Source of the DNA: Acetobacteroides hydrogenigenes
Lineage (GTDB): Bacteria; Bacteroidota; Bacteroidia; Bacteroidales; ZOR0009
Direction of reading: 5' to 3'
Length of the DNA: 64,000 bases
Assembly (NCBI RefSeq): GCF_004340205.1
Contig: NZ_SLWB01000010.1
Location: 1-64,000, forward strand
Made by a program: the position numbers and the translations under genes. The notes below the pieces were generated by a model. The model searched no databases and was not told where the DNA came from. It saw only the letters and a list, made by a program, of their open reading frames with translations. Numbering within the stretch: the first letter of the stretch is position 1; every line of letters starts with the position of its first letter. Positions 2,020-58,318 of the stretch are shown piece by piece.

Positions 2020-3081
2020 CTAGTTGAAGAAGTATCCGCCGTTAGGATAAATACCAACATTGTACTCTTTTATTTTCTCGCCATTGGTACTATTGTAACG
2101 AATCATCTTGTGGGTAAGAGAGGTATAAGGAGCAGTCATAGCCATTATTTCACCATTAGAAGGATTGATGGCTAATCCATAAAAATCGCCACTAATGAAT
2201 GGCTTTGTTGGAGCCGCAGCTGCCGCAATGTCCATTTGGAAGATACCGGGTGCTCCATAGCTTCCTATATAGTAAAGCTTATCCTTGGTGCTGCTTATCT
2301 GAAGTCTATCAGGATTAAAGCCTTCTATGTTAATTTTAGTAACTTCATAATTAGATGGATTAATCTTGCAAATAGCACCTTTAGTGCTATTTGCTGAATT
2401 TGTCCAATCGGTATAGCCTGCGCATACAACCCATACTACTCCTGTCTTATCTACCACAAATGCTTTAGGAGAATCTGCTACATTAATGGTTCTTTCAATG
2501 GTGTTGTTGCTAAGATTGATAACCGATATGGTGTTATTTTTACCACCGCTTCCAGCGCTATTGGCTACATAAAGCTTATTATTATAAATAACCATTCCTT
2601 CTGGATCAGATCCTACTTTAATAGACCCCGTAACCTTATTCTCTTTAAGATTAACTATAGCTATCTCATCATTTTTCCAAGCGCTTACATAGCCTGTTTT
2701 TCCATTTACAACCATATAGCGAGGACCTTCTACTGGAATCATAGCGTATTTCTTGCAGGAGTACTTGCTTACGGCAACTATCTTGTTCGATCCGTTGAGA
2801 ACTAAATAGGCTGAAGTATCTGCCACCGCAATACTTTGGAGTACGTCACCCAACTCCTCCTTGTTCACCTTATAGTAAACGTCGTTGGCAAGGCTATCGC
2901 CGTTGGTGTAGTAGAGCGAAATCGATGCCTCATTCTTTCCGAAGCTTCCCTCGTTGACGATCACCATTCCTTGGGTAAGGTCGTAGCGTTGCTTAGGTTT
3001 TGCAGGCGAATCATCATCATCGCAAGCTGTAAACTGTATTGCAGCACCTAGCAGAAGGGCCGCGTAAAGTAGCTTTTTCAT
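2020..3081 (-). CDS. BtuG-like surface lipoprotein (YncE/DUF5074-type beta-propeller)
   Basis: 353 aa. The signal peptide ends in lipobox FTAC, with Cys20 followed by acidic DDDDS, the pattern that favours surface export in Bacteroidota. The rest is a beta-propeller with recurring blades such as YVANSAGSGGKNNTISVINL and VWVVCAGYTD. It is transcribed directly after a TonB-dependent receptor and a cobalamin riboswitch. In Bacteroides, BtuG lipoproteins of this fold cap BtuB and bind B12 very tightly (established knowledge). The inference here is therefore capture of corrinoid at the cell surface and hand-over to the receptor encoded at 3135-5012. A 3'-terminal remnant of a paralogue lies at 16365-16556. 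The B12 role rests on context plus fold, not on identified binding residues. Confidence 0.85.
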   Translation of the reverse strand: MKKLLYAALLLGAAIQFTACDDDDSPAKPKQRYDLTQGMVIVNEGSFGKNEASISLYYTNGDSLANDVYYKVNKEELGDVLQSIAVADTSAYLVLNGSNKIVAVSKYSCKKYAMIPVEGPRYMVVNGKTGYVSAWKNDEIAIVNLKENKVTGSIKVGSDPEGMVIYNNKLYVANSAGSGGKNNTISVINLSNNTIERTINVADSPKAFVVDKTGVVWVVCAGYTDWTNSANSTKGAICKINPSNYEVTKINIEGFNPDRLQISSTKDKLYYIGSYGAPGIFQMDIAAAAAPTKPFISGDFYGLAINPSNGEIMAMTAPYTSLTHKMIRYNSTNGEKIKEYNVGIYPNGGYFFN

Positions 3082-3134: not shown

Positions 3135-5012
3135 CTACCTCTGCTTTCCAAAGCTTACGGATACTCCGGCTTGGAAGGTTCTTAGCGGTAGCGCGTAGCC
3201 TTTTACCATTTGGTAGTCCCTGTTCCAGATGTTATCTATCCGTGCGAATGGTCGCATACCGCCCCAGCTAAAGTGCATCTGTGCTTCAACCACAACCGAG
3301 CCTATGCTGTACGGATTCAGCCAGTCGGTGTTGCTGATGTAGTAGCGCCTACCCGTATACGAATGTGCGTACCGGATGCTATACCACTTTGTTTGAAGGT
3401 AAATAGCGGCGCTTCCTTTGTATTTCGGCTTGTACGGAAGCTGCTGTCCTTTTACAGCCGATCCCGAGGTCTGATCGGTCGATCGCGTAAACAGCCCCGA
3501 GAGATCCACCCCCAGCGTGGTACGATTCAGCTGCTGCTTGGCCGTAATGTTGGCCTCGGCACCTCTCGACCATACCGACTTCACGTTTTGAGGAGTCCAG
3601 ATCGACCCGCTTGGCATCCACAGAATCCAGTTGTCGACGTTGTTGTTGAATGCAGCCGTCTTTACCGAAAGCAAGAACCCTTTCTTCATGTACAGGTAGT
3701 CCAGCCCCAGCTCTTCGCCGTAGCCGTCTTCCGGTTTCAGATCCGGATTTCCCCATCCCGTCCAGTACAGATCGTTAAACGAAGGCACTCGGTAGTTTCG
3801 CGATACGTTCCCCCTTAGCTGTAGCCCAGGTAGTAGCCTTTTTTGTAAACCTACCGACCAAGTCATAGGCGATGCATCGCCATTTATAAGCTCCTGCCGA
3901 ATGCTTGCAAATGCCTCGAACCCACCATTGCTGGTGCGGAAGCGATATCCAAGCACACCGGCAGGTCGGTATCGCTCTTTGGCGTCAGGATAGTTGGTAG
4001 AGGAGGCTCTCTCGTACGATGCGTTTATACCGCCCTCCAGCGTGCTGCCCGCGCTAAGGGTCACAATGGCTTCGCCCTCCAGCTGTCCCTGTGTGGTATG
4101 GTGATTCGATCGTTCTATGCCCGGATTGCGGTATTTCTGCCAGTCGTTAAAGAGTGCCGACTTTACGTTGAAGCGAACCCGATGGCGCGTAGCTTGCCAT
4201 TGCGCTGCTGCTCTAAGAAAACGGTTGTAGTCGTATTCGCTGCTCATGGTGTTGCTCACCATCGGGGGGTACTGGTTGTATCCGTCCTGTCCCCAAACCG
4301 ATACCACCAGCTTGTCGTTGCCAGTAAGCGCAAATGTTCCGGTTTCCATGATTCCGCCCTTGGAGTAGCGGGCGTTTATCTGCCTATCGCGGTTGTCGCT
4401 GCTGTTAACTTTGTAGTCGTTCTCGGCTTCGGTGTAGAATAGTCGGGTGGATAGCGCCATTTTAGAGCCGCTGTAGGTGTGCTTGGCTCCGGTGTACGAA
4501 AGGCCGTAGCTACCTACCGACTGCATCACCTCGCCGCTATGCCCTTCGCCAAGATTCAGGGTGTTGTCCAGGTGAATAACTCCGCCAATGGCACCGCTGC
4601 CAAACAGCGCGCCGTTTCCGCCCTGCTGTACCACCACTTGATCTACAAAGAAGGTAGGGATGCTTCCGAAGTTAACCCCGGCGTTCATGGTGCTCTGCAG
4701 GTTGATGCCGTTCCAGAGCACGGCCGTATGCGAAGAGTTTAATCCGCGCATCGACACGTTCGAGGTCCCTCCCGGACTGTAGCTGTTTACCGTAACCGCA
4801 GCTTGGCTGGTAAGCAGTTCGGAGAGTAGCATGCTGCTGTTCTGCCGAAGTTCGGTTGGCGAAACTATTTTTAGCGATAGCCCCGACGTGTAGCGCTTAA
4901 GTTTGCTGCTTACCACTACCTCTTTAAGGTGTATGGTATCCGCAATGGGCCTTTCCTCAGGAAGATTCCCTGGAATGGAAAGCGCGCTAAAAAGAAGAAC
5001 GTTAAGTAACAT
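3135..5012 (-). CDS. btuB: TonB-dependent receptor, BtuB-type vitamin B12 transporter
   Basis: 625 aa, about the length of E. coli BtuB and shorter than SusC-like receptors. A short signal peptide is followed by a TonB-box-like stretch (DTIHLKEVVVSS, about residues 26-37). The plug domain spans about residues 40-150, with SNVSMRGLNSSHTAVLWNG and GNGALFGSGAIGGVI. The rest is a 22-strand-type barrel ending TFQAGVSVSFGKQR. It is the first gene behind a cobalamin riboswitch and is followed after 53 bases by the BtuG-like lipoprotein. Predicted role: TonB-driven import of cobalamin across the outer membrane. No inner-membrane BtuCDF genes are in the window. Confidence 0.92.
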   Translation of the reverse strand: MLLNVLLFSALSIPGNLPEERPIADTIHLKEVVVSSKLKRYTSGLSLKIVSPTELRQNSSMLLSELLTSQAAVTVNSYSPGGTSNVSMRGLNSSHTAVLWNGINLQSTMNAGVNFGSIPTFFVDQVVVQQGGNGALFGSGAIGGVIHLDNTLNLGEGHSGEVMQSVGSYGLSYTGAKHTYSGSKMALSTRLFYTEAENDYKVNSSDNRDRQINARYSKGGIMETGTFALTGNDKLVVSVWGQDGYNQYPPMVSNTMSSEYDYNRFLRAAAQWQATRHRVRFNVKSALFNDWQKYRNPGIERSNHHTTQGQLEGEAIVTLSAGSTLEGGINASYERASSTNYPDAKERYRPAGVLGYRFRTSNGGFEAFASIRQELINGDASPMTWSVGLQKRLLPGLQLRGNVSRNYRVPSFNDLYWTGWGNPDLKPEDGYGEELGLDYLYMKKGFLLSVKTAAFNNNVDNWILWMPSGSIWTPQNVKSVWSRGAEANITAKQQLNRTTLGVDLSGLFTRSTDQTSGSAVKGQQLPYKPKYKGSAAIYLQTKWYSIRYAHSYTGRRYYISNTDWLNPYSIGSVVVEAQMHFSWGGMRPFARIDNIWNRDYQMVKGYALPLRTFQAGVSVSFGKQR

Positions 5013-5140
5013 GTTTTACAAATGATCAAAATCGTTAGCGATTCAACCATTTAAAACCTGCGAATAAAAAGATGTGATGCTGTAAGCAATGTAAAAGAAT
5101 TACACCAAGCCCTTTATCCGAAAGCTATAAATGTTCACGT

Positions 5141-5306
5141 TCTGGCAGGTCTTCTGGCTTGTTCCCCTTTTATCGGCCTTCCCGTCCCAACCGGACAGTG
5201 GCATTTGGATGGTGATAAAAGGTTTTGGTAGAACTTACAGCAGCGGTAACTGCTCGGGATTTTCACCCGATTCCCTTTTCGCCCCGCATATGGCGGAAAC
5301 CAAAAC
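5141..5306 (-). promoter_or_regulatory. Cobalamin (B12) riboswitch
   Basis: Minus-strand RNA with the class I hallmarks in order: GGGAATCGGGTGAAAATCCC, then GAGCAGTTACCGCTGCTGTAA, a GCCACTG element, GGGAAGGC, and the 3' AAGCCAGAAGACCTGCC. It lies between a -7/-33 promoter and btuB, with about 130 bases of leader after the aptamer. It is expected to switch off btuB and the BtuG-like gene when adenosylcobalamin is plentiful. Confidence 0.96.
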
Positions 5307-5311
5307 TGGCG

Positions 5312-5340
5312 CAAAGATAGGCTTAATTTATGTACTCAAA
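5312..5340 (-). promoter_or_regulatory. Promoter of the riboswitch-btuB operon
   Basis: Minus strand TTTG (5340-5337), 17-base spacer, TATCTTTG (5319-5312): a full Bacteroidota -33/-7 promoter. Transcription would start about 5306, at the first base of the riboswitch. The stretch from 5341 to 5696 holds no gene I can support. Confidence 0.8.
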
Positions 5341-7028: not shown

Positions 7029-7081
7029 ATTGAATAGTTTAATGCTCGCGTATCGTTGCGTTTGGGTATAAACGCAAAAAA

Positions 7082-7180
7082 GGGTAAGCTACTTACATCG
7101 CACCGCTACAACCGCTTACCCTTGCTACCTTCCGGTCCTGGGGGGATTCAGCAGGAGCTGGTCGTGTAAGACTTACCCGG
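7082..7180 (-). ncRNA. ffs: Bacterial small SRP RNA (4.5S RNA)
   Basis: The minus strand carries the SRP domain IV signature CCAGGACCGGAAGGTAGCAAGG. The flanking arms GGGTAAGTCTTACA (5') and TGTAAGTAGCTTACCC (3') pair to close a roughly 100-nt rod. A T run follows the 3' end. It scaffolds Ffh for co-translational membrane targeting. A Bacteroidota promoter sits just upstream; exact ends are estimates. Confidence 0.95.
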
Positions 7181-7183
7181 GCA

Positions 7184-7214
7184 CAAAAGTACAACAAAAT
7201 CCGAAGAAGCCAAA
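7184..7214 (-). promoter_or_regulatory. Promoter of the SRP RNA
   Basis: Minus strand TTTG (7214-7211), 19-base spacer, TACTTTTG (7191-7184), placing the start near 7178-7180 at the foot of the SRP RNA stem. Confidence 0.8.
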
Positions 7215-14570: not shown

Positions 14571-15317
14571 ATGAATACCATATTTACTCATCGCTCGATT
14601 AGAAACTTCACCGAACAAAAGGTGGAGGAGGAAAAGCTAACCCGTATTCTTGAGGCTGGCGTACGCGCTTCGACCACTGGGAATATGCAGGTGTATAGCA
14701 TTGTTGTAACTACCGATAGCGAGTGCCGCGAGGCGCTTAATGCCTGTCACTTCAACCAGCCTGCAACCAAGGCTCCGGTTATGATGACCTTCTGTGCCGA
14801 CTTTAACCGCTTCAATAAGTGGTGCGAGCAGCGTAAGGCAGCTCCCGGATACGATAACTTTCATGCTTTTGTAGTTGCTGCTATTGATGCGCTATTGGCA
14901 TCGCAGAACGTGAGCCTGGAGGCCGAGAATCAGGGCTTGGGTATTTGCTACCTTGGCACCACAACCTACACCGCCGATAGAATCATCGATATTTTGAAAT
15001 TACCCCAAGGTGTTGTGCCTATCACTACCGTTGTAATGGGCTATCCTAGCGAAATGCCCGAGCTTACAGATAGGCTTCCTCTAGAGGCGGTTGTTCATCG
15101 CGAAGTTTACAACGATTATACTCCTGCGGATATCGATAGGATTTACGCCGAGCGCGACACGCAACCCTTAACCCTTAAGCTGCTCAAGGAAAATGGGAAG
15201 GAGACGCTTGCGCAGGTGTTTACCGATAACCGTTACACTAAAAAGGACTTTGTTGCCATCTCTAACCTGCTGCTCGATGTTCTGAAAAAGCAGGGATTTA
15301 TGAATAATGAGATGTAG
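14571..15317 (+). CDS. NfsA-type FMN nitroreductase
   Basis: 248 aa. FMN-binding HRSIRNFTEQKVEEEKL at 5-21, ASTTGNMQVYSIV (33-45), ALLASQNVSLEAENQGLGICYLGT (about 103-126). This is the NfsA/Frp branch of oxygen-insensitive flavin reductases. Uses NAD(P)H to reduce nitro or quinone compounds or flavins; physiological substrate not predictable. Cytosolic. Ends close to the large repeat region at 15451. Confidence 0.88.
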   Translation: MNTIFTHRSIRNFTEQKVEEEKLTRILEAGVRASTTGNMQVYSIVVTTDSECREALNACHFNQPATKAPVMMTFCADFNRFNKWCEQRKAAPGYDNFHAFVVAAIDALLASQNVSLEAENQGLGICYLGTTTYTADRIIDILKLPQGVVPITTVVMGYPSEMPELTDRLPLEAVVHREVYNDYTPADIDRIYAERDTQPLTLKLLKENGKETLAQVFTDNRYTKKDFVAISNLLLDVLKKQGFMNNEM

Positions 15318-15450
15318 CCATTAGAAGCTAATCGAAATTTAGGCGTAAGCTATTCTGAAGTAAACCGGAAATTGACATTAAAGAATTGTCCAAGTTGATC
15401 TTCTGTGGTTATCCAGCGTCTAAAATCTAGCATCTTGTTTAGGGATTACT

Positions 15451-15526
15451 CTAGTTTTTTCATATATCAGCAAAAGAGCCGCACGAGGAATCGTGCGGCT
15501 TTTTTATTAAACCATGCTGCTGCTAC
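15451..15526 (+). repeat. Duplicated btuG 3'-flank block (terminator copy 2)
   Basis: 76 bases matching, with a few substitutions, the minus strand of 1948-2023: stop-codon CTAG, TTTTTTCAT, the GAGCCGCACGA-GGAA-TCGTGCGGC hairpin with T tail, and ACCATGCTGCTGCTAC. No gene end precedes it here, so it is a detached paralogous piece. It may still stop transcription from the nitroreductase gene. Confidence 0.9.
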
Positions 15527-15534
15527 CATTTTCC

Positions 15535-16320
15535 ACCACCTTTTATGCCGTTAGCCGTAGGGCATTGCACCGCATCTTACTCAACATTTATAGCATCTTC
15601 CCCAATTTTTACCCCATGTGGCAGCGTTTTTATTGCATCAGCCATCATTTTTATTCCATGTGATCGCATTTTTATGCAATCTGACAGGACTTGATACCCC
15701 GAATGACAGCACGTTTATGCCATCTGACAAGGCTTGATACCCCGAATGACAGCACGTTTATATCATCTGACAGGGCTTGATACCCCGAATGACAGCACGT
15801 TTATACCATCTGACACGACGTGATACCCCGAATGACAGCACGTTTATACCATCTGACACGACGTGATACCCCGTATGACAGCACGTTTATACCATCTGAC
15901 ACGACGTGATACCCCGAATGACAGCACGTTTATGCCATCAGACACGACGTGATACCCCGAATGACAGCACGTTTATGCCATCAGACACGACGTGATACCC
16001 CGAATGACAGCACGTTTATGCCATCAGACACGACGTGATACCCCGAATGACAGCACGTTTATGCCATCAGACACGACGTGATACCCCGAATGACAGCACG
16101 TTTATGCCATCAGACACGACGTGATACCCCGAATGACAGCACTTTTATGCCATCTGACAGGGCTTGATACCCCGAATGACAGCGTTTTTATACCATCTGC
16201 CAAGGCTTGATACCCCGAATGATCGCACTTTTATACCATCTGACAACGCCTTATACCCCGAATGTCACCCTTTTTACAACGAATGACGGAGCTTATACAG
16301 CATCTGCCGCGGCTTATTTG
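15535..16320. repeat. Tandem repeat array 2, 43-bp unit made of two 21/22-bp halves
   Basis: Core unit 43 bp: GATACCCCGAATGACAGCAC plus GTTTATGCCATCAGACACGACGT. GACA cores alternate at 22 and 21 bases (15683, 15705, 15726, 15748, 15769 and on; 15961 to 16004 is 43). The centre (about 15700-16160) is nearly identical from copy to copy; both edges decay into variants resembling array 1. About 35 half-units in all. There are no unique spacers, so it is not CRISPR, and no fixed reading frame. It is the same family as array 1 on the opposite strand. Confidence 0.95.
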
Positions 16321-16364
16321 CGTCCTGCCGTCGTTTGGAGGAAATGTTATCGGTTTTTATACAA

Positions 16365-16556
16365 GCTAGGAGATTCTTCGTTAGCGGTAGCTTCTACGGT
16401 TTTGCAGTTAGTCCTTCGAATGGAGATGTAATGGCCATGGTTGCCGACAGGAAAGTAGCGGCCAACAATAAAATGGTTCGTTATATCGCTACTGGAAGCA
16501 AGGTTAAGGAGTATGTGGTTGGCGTTGGCCCTAACGGTAGATACATTTTCAGCTAG
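16365..16556 (+). pseudogene. 3'-terminal remnant of a BtuG-like gene
   Basis: Encodes about 63 residues, including FVSGSFYGFAVSPSNGDVMA, KMVRYIATGSKVKEY and VGVGPNGRYIFS-stop. This aligns end-to-end with the C-terminus of the lipoprotein at 2020-3081 (FISGDFYGLAINPSNGEIMA, KMIRYNSTNGEKIKEY, VGIYPNGGYFFN). The first 290 or so residues are missing and are replaced by the repeat array. An in-frame ATG at 16335 could allow a short peptide without signal sequence, but I treat it as a relic. Confidence 0.88.
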
Positions 16557-16608
16557 GTTTTTCATACATCAGCAAAAAAGGCGCTCGATTTCTCGTGCTG
16601 CTTTTCTA
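16557..16608 (+). repeat. Decayed btuG 3'-flank block (terminator copy 3)
   Basis: TAGGTTTTTCATACATCAGC, then AAAAAAGGCGCTCGA-TTTC-TCGTGCTGCTTTT. Same layout as 1948-2023 and 15451-15526, with several compensating and non-compensating changes in the stem. It follows the BtuG-like remnant as copy 1 follows the intact gene. Confidence 0.8.
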
Positions 16609-16807
16609 TTGCACCCAATTATTTCGGTATCGGTGAATAGCAAAAGGCTATACTCAAAAGCCATTAACCCATTTGGGAAGAATGGCTAGACTGGCGGGAA
16701 CGAGGTAACCGGATTGGATATAAGGGGATCCCACTTAAGAACACGAATGGGATTCTGGACTCCAGGCTCCTGTTTTTTGTATATTTAGGCAAGCTAATAA
16801 TACTTCT

Positions 16808-17245
16808 ATGGTACGAGTTGTTATTGTTTTCGGATTGTTGCTTGGTGGGGTGAGCGTTGCCTTTGCACAAGCATCTAGGGACAGGGCAAAGGCCGAGATT
16901 CTTGCAGCAGAGGCTCGCTTTCAGCAAATGGCAGCCGATAGCGGTGTTGCTGTGGCATTCGAGCACTTTGCGGCTCCCGATGCGGTAATCAACCGAAGCG
17001 ATATAATTATGGTTGGCATCGATGCCATTGTAAAGCATATGCGCAGCAGCAAGGTTACTGCTGTAAGGCTGCAGTGGAAGCCCGATTTTGTTGATGCCTC
17101 GGATGATGGTACGCTTGGCTACACCTATGGCAAGTATACCTTTTCGGCAATCGACCCTGATGGAAAACCGATTTCATCTACAGGAATATTCCATACCGTT
17201 TGGCGGCGGCAGCCCAATGGCGAATGGAAGTATGTTTGGGATTAG
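16808..17245 (+). CDS. Secreted DUF4440/SnoaL-like protein
   Basis: 145 aa. Signal peptide 1-20 (VVIVFGLLLGGVSVAFAQA) and then a cystatin/NTF2-like fold: EILAAEARFQQMAADSGVAVAFEHFAAPDAV, DGTLGYTYGKYTF, GIFHTVWRRQPNGEWKYVWD. This matches DUF4440, a small periplasmic alpha+beta family without an assigned reaction. It stands 124 bases before the glycosidase gene on the same strand; the two may be co-transcribed. Confidence 0.85.
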   Translation: MVRVVIVFGLLLGGVSVAFAQASRDRAKAEILAAEARFQQMAADSGVAVAFEHFAAPDAVINRSDIIMVGIDAIVKHMRSSKVTAVRLQWKPDFVDASDDGTLGYTYGKYTFSAIDPDGKPISSTGIFHTVWRRQPNGEWKYVWD

Positions 17246-38653: not shown

Positions 38654-39373
38654 ATGGCAAGTACATCTGAAACTGGACACGCCAAGAACGTGGATAACCT
38701 AGGACTACTAATCTCTAACATCGCCAGCTACGGCGATAGGTACAAGCCCACCAATCCCTCTATTTTACTCGAAGCGCTTAAGAAGATGGAAGCCGACGGA
38801 CGTGCCGCCGTTCTCGCTGTTAACGATGCCATGCCCATCTATAGCCGAGCCACCATCGAGCGCGATAACGCTTTTGCACCGCTAGGTCAGCTGGTAACCC
38901 GTTCGCTCAACTCGCTTCGCGCTTCCAGCTCGTCCGAGCAAACCGATGAGGCAGCCTCTGCCATCGTTCGTAAGATAAGGGGTAACCGCACCACTGCCAA
39001 GACTGCTGCTGCTACCGATGTTAAGGTGGCCACCGTTTCTACCTCGCAGCAGAGCTACGACAGCGTAATCGACAACTACGAGCGCTACATTCAGTATATT
39101 GCCGCTACTCCCGAGTACGCGCCCAACGAGGATGATATCAAGCTCCCTGTGCTCAAAGCCCTAGCGGTGGATCTGCGCGCCAAGAATACCGCCTGCAACA
39201 ACGCCAAGGTTGCCATCGATAATGCCCGCATGGCCCGCAACCGCGTGCTATACACTCCCCTTACCGGCTTGGTAGACGTGGCTCTCGATGCCAAGACCTA
39301 CATCAAGTCGCTATTTGGCTCTACCAGCCCCGAGTACAAGCAGGTGGCCAAGATCGATTTTACCAAGGCATAG
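38654..39373 (+). CDS. Hypothetical helical protein
   Basis: 239 aa, no signal peptide, no cysteine except one near residue 180. Almost wholly helical, rich in Ala, Lys and Asp: SETGHAKNVDNLGLLISNIASYGDRYKPTNPSILLEAL, then STSQQSYDSVIDNYERYIQYI and KLPVLKALAVDLRAKNTACNNAKVAIDNARMARN. It resembles the uncharacterised helical proteins often found as lone genes in Bacteroidales. GC-rich and strongly codon-biased compared with abiH next door. Terminator follows. Confidence 0.75.
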   Translation: MASTSETGHAKNVDNLGLLISNIASYGDRYKPTNPSILLEALKKMEADGRAAVLAVNDAMPIYSRATIERDNAFAPLGQLVTRSLNSLRASSSSEQTDEAASAIVRKIRGNRTTAKTAAATDVKVATVSTSQQSYDSVIDNYERYIQYIAATPEYAPNEDDIKLPVLKALAVDLRAKNTACNNAKVAIDNARMARNRVLYTPLTGLVDVALDAKTYIKSLFGSTSPEYKQVAKIDFTKA

Positions 39374-39483: not shown

Positions 39484-39756
39484 CCAAGCTTTTGCCCTCC
39501 CGTCTGCCACTTTTCGGTTCCCCACTGTAGCTTCTTGCTTCCCGTTTGTAGCTTTTCGTTTCCTGTCTGTGACTTTTGGCTTCCCGTCTGAGACTTTTCG
39601 GCTCCTGTCTGTAGCTTTTGGCTTCCCGTCTGAAGCTTTTCGTCTCCCGTTTGTAGCTTTTGGCTTCCCGTCTGAAGCTTCTCGTCTCCCGTCTGAAGCT
39701 TTTCGCTTCCTGTCTGTCACTTTTCGCTTCCCGGCTGTAGCTTTTAGCTTCATGAT
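39484..39756. repeat. Tandem repeat array 3, thirteen exact 21-bp units
   Basis: Unit TGTAGCTTTTGGCTTCCCGTC and variants starts at 39484, 39505, 39526, 39547, 39568, 39589, 39610, 39631, 39652, 39673, 39694, 39715 and 39736: always 21 apart, with substitutions but no indels. Because 21 is a multiple of three, open frames run through it on both strands (for example a minus-strand heptad EAKSYRR). I regard these as by-products. From 39757 to 39990 there is generic low-complexity intergenic text (GTGCCCTTAGTGCC) and the lpdA terminator. Confidence 0.95.
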
Positions 39757-57116: not shown

Positions 57117-57866
57117 CTACTCCTCTGTGTTGCGGCTGCTCTTGCCCTCCCTTTTCTTGCGCGAGCGCGTGGCGCGCTGCTTTTGCGTTGCCCTGAATTC
57201 GGCTATGATGTGGTTTAGCGACGAGGCCATAGCCTTGTAGGTTTCGTTATTCCTAAATTCGATATGAAAGTTGATGTAGCGCCCCATCTTGTCGATGGCG
57301 AAGCCTAGCACCCGGGCTGCCTCCTGCGAGCTTACCCTGCTTTTGGGAGGCTTGGCCTGCGTTTGCTGCTCCTTGTGCAGGATGTAGCTGGCCTGCCCTT
57401 CGCGGATCTCCTCCACCCACTCCTGTGCGTTTATCGTTTCGATGGCCTGCTTTAGGTGGGGGTGCGTTTCCAGCATGTTGAGCAGCGTATCTACCAGGTT
57501 AGTCTCCTCCTTGTTGCCTTTGCGGTTCATCGTCCAGCCCACGGCCTTAATGGCGTAAACTAGCTGCTGGCCGGCGCTGGCCCAGGCTTCGTTCTTTCGG
57601 GCGGCGCACGTTTGCGCGTAGCGGCGCAGGTTCGAGATGCCCTTGTCGCGCTGGGCATCATCCTTTTTTACCAGGCTGCTGATGCTGGCGTTGCTCACCT
57701 TTTGCAGCGCCTGGTTCAGGGTTTCGACCTTACCCTCCATATCCTGTACGAGCAGCGCAAATTCGGCATCCTGATCCTGATCGCGCTTAACGATTTGGAG
57801 CATCTTTTCGGCAAATAGCGCTTTCTCGAGTATCCGCATATCGTGGTAGAAGAATCCTTTGATCAT
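57117..57866 (-). CDS. DUF6261-like helical protein
   Basis: 249 aa from ATG 57866 (MIKGFFYHDMRILEKALFAEKM). Predicted almost entirely helical: DMEGKVETLNQALQKVSNASISSLVKKDDAQRDKGISNLRRYAQ, then AGQQLVYAIKAVGWTMNRKGNKEETNLVDTLLNML. It ends in a basic tail TQKQRATRSRKKREGKSSRNTEE. This pattern fits DUF6261, a Bacteroidales family of unknown function often seen as isolated genes. The basic tail suggests nucleic-acid contact. GC-rich. The palindromic array begins 187 bases upstream of it. Confidence 0.75.
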   Translation of the reverse strand: MIKGFFYHDMRILEKALFAEKMLQIVKRDQDQDAEFALLVQDMEGKVETLNQALQKVSNASISSLVKKDDAQRDKGISNLRRYAQTCAARKNEAWASAGQQLVYAIKAVGWTMNRKGNKEETNLVDTLLNMLETHPHLKQAIETINAQEWVEEIREGQASYILHKEQQTQAKPPKSRVSSQEAARVLGFAIDKMGRYINFHIEFRNNETYKAMASSLNHIIAEFRATQKQRATRSRKKREGKSSRNTEE

Positions 57867-58052
57867 GAGCAAATAAATGAGTGGGTACCGCCCTAAATTT
57901 ATAAAGAAAGAACGGTTAAATATCCTTTACTGTGAAACTATTTTAGCTGATGCTGCCTGAGGATCGGCTGAACAGCGCTGCGCAGGGGGTGCGGGAATGG
58001 GGGTAGGGCTTATCGTGGCTCCGCGAAGGGGTACGGCGTGCAGGAAAGGATG

Positions 58053-58318
58053 TTCACGGCGCCGCGAATGGGCTATTTTAACTTGATTATTGAATTCACG
58101 GCGCCGTGAATTAGGTTTTGCATTGTGGTTATGAGATCACGGCACCGTGAATGGGCTGATTTGGTGTGATTATCATATGCGCGTGCCTGTTGATTTGTTT
58201 TCGCATTGCTTTAATGCATACACGGCGGCGGGAGTATTGTGTGCTATTGTGTTTGGTTGAATCCCGGCGCCGTGAATTGTCTTTTTGGGTGTGGTTGGGG
58301 GTTTCCCGGCGCCGGGAA
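58053..58318. repeat. Palindromic tandem array 4, 42-bp period
   Basis: Sixteen-base palindromes TTCACGGCGCCGTGAA (with variants) start at 58053, 58095, 58136, 58219, 58261 and 58303. The gaps are 42, 41, 83, 42 and 42, so a seventh, decayed copy is expected at about 58177. The 26-base partners between them are G/T-rich and alike (TTTTGCATTGTGGTTATG). The intervening DNA is therefore part of the unit, not unique spacer, and this is not CRISPR. It is placed between the DUF6261-like gene (minus) and the sulfatase (plus). From 58319 to 58628 nothing else is recognised. Confidence 0.92.

Follow-up and report, generated by a model that had tools for sequence, protein, structure and literature searches.

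Why does a tandem array bracketed by pieces of a btuG-like gene lie between a nitroreductase gene and a DUF4440 gene, and to which gene does such an array belong? The array was found in a stretch of 64,000 nucleotides (hereafter, the window) of the genome designated G000, which is compared below with two genomes of the same genus, G001 and G002 (protein identity within the genus, 83-96%). At this site, locus 2, all features are on the plus strand: the left neighbour of the insert, a nitroreductase-family gene (14571-15317), is followed, after 133 bp of other sequence, by a copy of the btuG terminator block (15451-15526), which on alignment with locus 1 begins inside the stop codon, by the array (15545-16320), by a 61-codon stump corresponding to the C-terminus of a second BtuG-like gene (16371-16556), by the decayed terminator of that gene, as recognized by alignment (16553-16610), and by the right neighbour of the insert, the DUF4440 gene (16808-17245). 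The stump was found by alignment and by tblastn, in which the BtuG-like C-terminus matched positions 16371-16553 with 32 of 62 residues identical (E 3e-14). The array is formed by a 43-bp unit (21 + 22 bp), of which the best stretch (15671-16264) holds 13.8 copies; the central copies are homogeneous and the copies at both edges degenerate. The 43-bp units repeat throughout, and the unique spacers of constant length that would mark a CRISPR were not found between them.

Locus 1, on the minus strand, reads btuG, terminator block, two facing 29-bp repeats, array and gene 322-1257. Its btuG gene (2020-3081) codes for a beta-propeller protein (DUF5074; Pfam) and was taken as BtuG-like because it lies behind a gene for a BtuB-like TonB-dependent receptor (3135-5012; Pfam), upstream of which is a cobalamin riboswitch (5127-5319; Rfam RF00174, 110.6 bits); the name BtuG is used for DUF5074 proteins of this kind. 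The BtuG-like protein was matched in 55 of the 60 genomes searched, its own included. A Bacteroidales small SRP RNA lies on the same strand at 7078-7185 (RNA family match), which, with the relatives found, points to the order Bacteroidales. The terminator block (1948-2023) has a homologue after btuG in G002. The array (1540-1860; period 21/42) occupies the spacer between btuG and gene 322-1257, upstream of the latter, whose 311-aa product, the reference for what we call family B, has a helical N-terminus and a carboxypeptidase-regulatory-like C-terminal domain (Pfam). The hairpin described here in the original prediction (1876-1947), between array and terminator, consists of two facing copies of a 29-bp repeat separated by 14 bp. 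The same repeat is found, with 0 mismatches, near the ends of the G000 contigs C6, C8, C12, C13 and C26, as would be expected if an insertion sequence, itself not seen, interrupted the assembly there; the two copies are thus probably the ends of an insertion sequence, either as a solo remnant or as a copy collapsed in the assembly.

When locus 1 was reverse-complemented and aligned with locus 2, the two terminator blocks (1948-2023 and 15451-15526) differed at 2 positions in 76 bp, the best alignments between the arrays were 69-86% identical, and an 80-bp match (81%) at 16530-16609 took in the second terminator together with the last part of the stump. The alignment bears out the order of parts predicted for both loci: terminator and array follow one another in the same order, and the locus-2 copy adjoins the remains of a btuG 3'-end. 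The view that the array is bracketed by pieces of btuG holds in full on the right, where there is a coding stump with its terminator; on the left there is only non-coding terminator sequence, starting inside the stop codon. A 23-bp core of the terminator, allowing up to 3 mismatches, occurs at just two places in the genome, locus 1 and locus 2; this pattern does not pick up the decayed third block, which has diverged too far. The block was therefore rejected as a genome-wide repeat, and it was not found scattered beside unrelated genes, which is what would have made its link to btuG accidental. A search of the genome with the whole locus-2 region likewise matched loci 1 and 2 only. All eight exact matches to a 16-base pattern of the array unit fall inside the two arrays; with up to 2 mismatches there were 168 matches, vs 124 for a reversed control, so that inexact matches elsewhere mean little.

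How did locus 2 arise? The original prediction was of a tandem duplication of btuG, terminator and array, followed by loss of the gene bodies. Locus 2 reads exactly like a fragment of such a tandem, and the genome does contain a gene duplicated together with its array (C3:255114 and C1:275453; see below). However, the near-identity of the terminators and the state of the stump suggest two dates. Identity between the stump and the intact btuG is 0.67, 0.73 and 0.38 at the first, second and third codon positions, and since the changes are mostly at third positions the stump probably diverged as a working gene; at the protein level it is about as distant from the intact gene (32/60 residues) as the latter is from btuG of G002 (33/59). 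The terminator copies thus look far younger than the divergence of the stump, and a single tandem duplication does not readily explain both. Nor was any btuG coding sequence found to the left of the first locus-2 terminator, and in G001 the array is linked to the homologue of gene 322-1257 (see below). We therefore regard a tandem duplication as unlikely. More probably, judging from the sequences, a second btuG existed, worked for a long time and was truncated, and the terminator-array copy was gained afterwards by exchange with locus 1; this succession of steps is the one that we infer.

The order of genes around locus 2 is the same in G001 and G002, and the insert is absent from the syntenic site in both: in G001 the nitroreductase and DUF4440 genes are almost adjacent, and in G002 about 560 bp separate the nitroreductase gene from the next large gene, a stretch in which terminator block, array and stump are all missing. 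The reading that best suits the locus-2 array is that of an orphan copy of the btuG/322-1257 spacer (terminator plus array), which would have been copied to between the nitroreductase and DUF4440 genes in this lineage, beside the stump of an older second btuG. In itself this is a modest finding, a displaced spacer copy next to a pseudogene stump.

The array at locus 1 has two neighbours, and the proposal that it belongs to the 3'-end of btuG was not sustained. In G001, a gene for a Na+/H+ antiporter (PF06965) comes next after btuG and its terminator, and the array lies apart from btuG; its distance is 748 bp from the antiporter gene and 338 bp from the homologue of gene 322-1257, upstream of which it lies. 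An array was found at the same place by btuG in G002, with an unrelated unit (similarity z 0.6). Among the family-B genes with at least 589 bp of upstream sequence, seven of nine have an array upstream and two do not (a tenth, with only 97 bp, was left out of this count). Together, the arrangement in G001, the only genome to separate the two genes, and the family-B counts suggest that the array goes with gene 322-1257, its closeness to btuG apparently being a matter of neighbours.

These arrays are members of a large class. With genes called by a home-made coding-potential method, intergenic arrays of at least 90 bp numbered 26 in 464 kb of G000 (window included), 20 in 400 kb of G002 and 3 in 126 kb of G001, and for 41 of the 49 the best period was 21, 22, 41-44, 63, 83-84 or 126; five genomes of other families had 3 arrays in 720 kb, with periods of 14, 24 and 88. 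In a larger set, partly chosen by synteny (the later G002 and G000 stretches were not random picks), 81 of 100 arrays of at least 80 bp belonged to the 21-bp series by a fixed criterion. The fundamental period was 20.97 (sd 0.29) for 87 arrays preselected as near 21. Arrays with a period of 41 or 43 are hard to reconcile with a coding origin. Loci from named Bacteroidales (980 kb) contained 15 arrays of at least 80 bp, nine with best periods of 21-22 or 42-44; thus, such repeat lengths occur beyond the genus, at lower density. Arrays seemed enriched between convergent genes in G000 (9 of the 23 cases with both neighbours present), but G002 did not show this (2 of 17), and the idea was dropped. 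Curvature due to A-tracts was also rejected, as the 10.5-bp harmonic was not dominant. A second class of intergenic repeats, of 7/14 bp and of the type TTAGACG/ATCTAAC, is present in G000 and G002 (e.g., L118:16456-16623 and L122:16691-16756), and scattered repeats of this type were noticed by eye near position 15420 of the window.

The units differ in sequence between most loci. Fifteen of 31 G000 arrays were placed against G002, including the btuG locus, which was paired by hand; for 17 of the 31, the btuG locus among them, the sampled G002 DNA did not include the syntenic stretch. Nine of the placed arrays belong to the 21-bp series and have an array in the syntenic G002 gap, with related units in five cases (z 11-45) and unrelated ones in four (z near 0); five have no G002 counterpart (15671 in the window, C4:121251 and C4:30691, in short gaps, and C4:126338 and C1:426258, in long ones); and one is a 98-bp repeat outside the series. 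The four same-place pairs with unrelated units were not accepted as proof of replacement, as two of the intervals span several kb and coincidence is possible.

Could the arrays spread as transposable units? Arrays at distant loci of G002 can be 88-90% alike without common flanks; one array family is present at four loci in G002, three in G000 and none in G001, and another at five loci in G000, five in G002 and one in G001. For eight related array pairs, from distant loci or different genomes, likeness is confined to the arrays or to about 25 bp of their edges, except for one pair with a 31-bp match just outside. (Pairs that do have common flanks appear, from the extent of the match, to be orthologous or to be gene-plus-array duplicates.) However, at five empty sites terminal repeats, target duplications and transposase were not seen by eye, one DUF6261 protein (a family introduced below) gave no match to plasmid or phage collections, and DUF6261 lacks the conserved His required of a HUH nuclease. 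Mobility of the arrays as elements in their own right thus seems very improbable.

Most arrays are without a partner gene in this analysis, but a few protein families recur beside them. A comparison of 89 proteins flanking arrays gave 17 related pairs (E 1e-5 or better), among them btuG and its stump. In the window, the gene for S2 (38654-39373, plus strand), a 239-aa protein with no Pfam match, has an array downstream (39487-39751; period 21/42), and the array is downstream, not upstream, in the three members of this family examined, one per species of the genus. Family C has its array upstream (3/3), family E downstream (2/2), and family D upstream in two members, downstream in two and none in one. 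A single superfamily behind the array-linked genes was considered and dropped, as no relation emerged when the DUF6261 profile was compared with those of families B, C, D, E and S2 and of six single proteins.

The strongest association is with DUF6261 (PF19775), matched by 7 of 87 array-flanking proteins and represented in the window by gene 57117-57872 (minus strand; domain match). The three genomes of the genus have 33, 18 and 38 matches; none was found in five other genomes or in 14 control genomes. A wider draw of 393 Bacteroidales genomes included 45 with one match or more; since at most 9 candidates were scored per genome, the numbers per genome in this draw are lower bounds. We examined 82 of the 89 matches in the genus, 79 of which had 600 bp on both sides. 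An array of the 21-bp series lies within 600 bp upstream of 57 of these 79 genes, vs 38 of 580 other genes (Fisher p 2e-38), and within 600 bp downstream of 1 of 79 vs 52 of 580; by genome, the upstream counts are 24/31 (G000), 5/10 (G001) and 28/38 (G002). Outside the genus, where the best-scoring gene per genome was taken (27 loci, one dropped because of short upstream DNA), an array was present upstream of 18 of 26 genes, and one of any period downstream of 3. Measured over 59 DUF6261 arrays, the distance between array and start codon has a median of 130 bp, and the arrays themselves have a median length of 222 bp, or about five units. DUF6261 genes account for only about a tenth of the sampled arrays (12 genes; 100 arrays), and short arrays with periods of 22/44 bp were also observed in named or MAG Bacteroides (L198, L199, L219, L220 and L224), with no DUF6261-like ORF in the stretches examined.

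Likeness of the arrays follows likeness of the proteins. Units are shared by 10 of 13 pairs of DUF6261 arrays when the proteins are at least 75% identical, by 6 of 33 at 50-75% and by 0 of 1665 below 50%, and all 16 similar pairs have the same orientation relative to the gene. At C3:255114 and C1:275453 of G000 (L272 and L274), a DUF6261 gene is duplicated together with its upstream array (93% over 1.4 kb), and the duplicates differ by one 42-bp array unit. In the DUF6261 proteins scanned, PF19775 was the only match above cut-off, with no ParB domain in Pfam, NCBIfam and PDB sequence searches and no recognized DNA-binding domain. The single-sequence structure models made in this analysis were poor (pLDDT 45 and 52). 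A defence, phage or plasmid origin was set aside, since the proteins tried gave no match: one was compared with plasmid and phage collections and two with PADLOC. Two other array-linked proteins had weak PADLOC matches (E 0.002-0.04).

The regularity upstream of DUF6261 extends beyond recognizable arrays. By plain autocorrelation, independent of the repeat finder, the strongest lag is 40-43 bp in 76 of 81 DUF6261 upstream regions from the genus and in 23 of 26 from elsewhere (missing in 5 and 3, respectively), vs 66 of 657 other genes and 34 of the 156 with at least 300 bp of intergenic DNA upstream; it is dominant even in 17 of 22 DUF6261 upstream regions in the genus that have no tandem array. 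The units also tend to be palindromic. For all arrays together, no excess of palindromes was found in a first test with loops of 3-10 (5/49 vs 9/100 controls); the excess emerged after the set had been split and the units viewed by eye. With loops of 2-8, the mean longest perfect stem of DUF6261-linked units was 5.47 vs 3.88 after shuffling, with 29 of 75 units at p<0.05 (18 of the 75 are from outside the genus). The excess was weak for other arrays (4.67 vs 3.87; 13/55), and random genomic 42-mers gave 3.97 vs 3.86 (14/150). In 54 arrays with a stem of at least 5 bp, variation is about half as frequent at stem positions (6.0%) as at the other positions of the unit (12.6%; p 9e-7). Double changes that would compensate for each other within arrays were few and not in excess: 4 were paired and 3 unpaired, vs 33 and 38 in controls. 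The DUF6261 gene of the window is an example of palindromes without a detected array: no upstream tandem array was reported by the repeat finder, and yet a 16-bp palindrome, TTCACGGCGCCGTGAA, occurs upstream in seven copies with 0-5 mismatches (58012-58318), at spacings of 42, 42, 83, 41, 42 and 41 bp and with differing spacers; shuffles of the region gave 0.14 copies on average and at most 2. Two loci of G002 (925745 and 1327734) and one of G000 (C9:28474) resemble it in having phased palindromes. Overall, palindrome pairs upstream of DUF6261 at distances of 40-43, 82-85 and 124-127 bp number 58, 51 and 28, vs 5.8 per 4-bp bin elsewhere; for other genes the numbers are 16, 18 and 7, vs 10.4.

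Could slippage during replication, or unequal exchange, have produced all this as functionless, neutral minisatellites? The homogeneous centre and degenerate edges of the locus-2 array, the difference of one 42-bp unit between the duplicates and the arrays present in one species and missing from the other are all what such a process would leave. It does not, however, account for the position upstream of DUF6261 genes across families, for a palindrome phase of 41-42 bp where no tandem array is detected, or for the slower change at stem positions. We consider neutrality improbable: that palindrome and spacing are both kept favours phased protein sites over slippage.

The repeats might instead act as RNA. 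In type III toxin-antitoxin systems, the toxin gene is preceded by a tandem repeat whose transcript is processed into antitoxin RNAs, and DUF6261 loci, with about five units of 41-42 bp upstream of the gene, largely private to each paralogue, resemble systems such as ToxIN in the position of a short, locus-private array. TAnnTTTG, the Bacteroidetes-type -7 motif, is moreover scarce between -130 and -10: it was present at 6% of DUF6261 genes, vs 28% of control genes whose upstream regions are long. However, a simple scan of 59 loci found no terminator-like site separating the array from the gene, setting them apart from type III systems, and there is no signal of an RNA sense: G-U pairs are not preferred on the sense strand (42 sense vs 67 antisense) and the two strands fold about equally (p 0.31). 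The protein differs as well: DUF6261 is predicted to be all-helical, of about 245 aa, and the proteins scanned had no match to a ToxN-like endoribonuclease in Pfam, NCBIfam or PADLOC (the last, two proteins). An RNA-level element of this kind is thus quite unlikely.

What we favour, if by a small measure, is that the locus-2 array is an orphan spacer copy and that the arrays of the n x 21 bp class are cis elements of particular small genes, serving as phased sites for a dimeric DNA-binding protein. At 21 or about 42 bp, the repeat length is near a whole number of helical turns, which would place all units on the same face of the DNA, and most DUF6261 genes are preceded by several copies of their own palindrome 41-42 bp apart. 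A dimeric protein, most simply the product of the gene itself, would bind these sites cooperatively, and the resulting complex might serve in autoregulation or be centromere-like. Family-B arrays may act in the same manner, but here the DUF6261 mechanism is carried over to the window array by analogy only, because family B has no palindrome excess: palindromes are of ordinary density and not paired at 40-43 bp, this lag is the strongest in only 3 of 8 cases, and the best stems in the two window arrays (loci 1 and 2) are 2-3 bp, below those of shuffled sequences. Profile comparison found no relation between family B and DUF6261, and a fold search with a poor single-sequence model of a family-B protein gave nothing below E 0.4.

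A broader reading, which we put forward tentatively and with somewhat less than even confidence, is that a Bacteroidales chromosome with up to about 38 copies of DUF6261, most with a private palindrome array phased at four helical turns, would carry dozens of mutually independent, co-evolving protein-DNA pairs in one cell; unrelated families such as that of gene 322-1257 would use 21-bp arrays likewise, and orphan arrays (15545-16320) would be second sites in trans. Gene-linked arrays with near-helical spacing and largely private sequences are in any case an unusual lead, and no description of them was found in searches of the open-access literature. If the pairing is real, nature would have supplied many protein-site pairs, each with its own specificity, from which the evolution of DNA recognition could be studied and regulators that do not interfere with one another could be built; it would also give a first handle on the little-studied DUF6261, a term for which the literature search returned one paper, and would help to explain why the genus is so rich in intergenic repeats that seem unrelated between loci.

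Several known systems share some of these features. RAYT proteins and their REP elements also combine paralogous proteins with private palindromic repeats, as DUF6261 paralogues do; unlike REP elements, however, the DUF6261 repeats stay local, with a phase of 41-42 bp, and the conserved His of a HUH nuclease is missing from the family. The prokaryotic satellites surveyed by Subirana and Messeguer are non-coding and in part form dispersed families, those with long repeats being called rare (Leptospira, Methanocella); the parts of that survey considered here name neither a helical-turn series nor a gene partner (PMC6749651). Within the Bacteroidales, BrickBuilt, a minisatellite MITE of Porphyromonas gingivalis, is described as having intergenic tandem repeats with a 23-nt unit, or about two helical turns, close in this respect to the arrays of the genus, but as a single sequence family within a MITE (19 copies in ATCC 33277), whereas the genus arrays differ in unit between most loci and some are tied to genes (PMC4596501). 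The hallmarks of a MITE were not found in the genus arrays: dispersed pairs have no common flanks, units are mostly locus-specific, and inverted-repeat ends were not noticed by eye at five empty sites.

Another such system is the sopC centromere of the F plasmid, in which a palindrome-containing unit of about 43 bp is repeated in tandem beside the gene of the protein that binds it. DUF6261 arrays differ in being chromosomal, in belonging to many paralogues with mostly private sequences and in lying upstream of the gene for a helical protein in which, among those scanned, no ParB domain indicative of a ParB/SopB-type protein was found. As a set, if not in every unit, and leaving aside the family-B arrays of the window, they share with sopC both the period, 41-42 bp, and the excess of palindromes.
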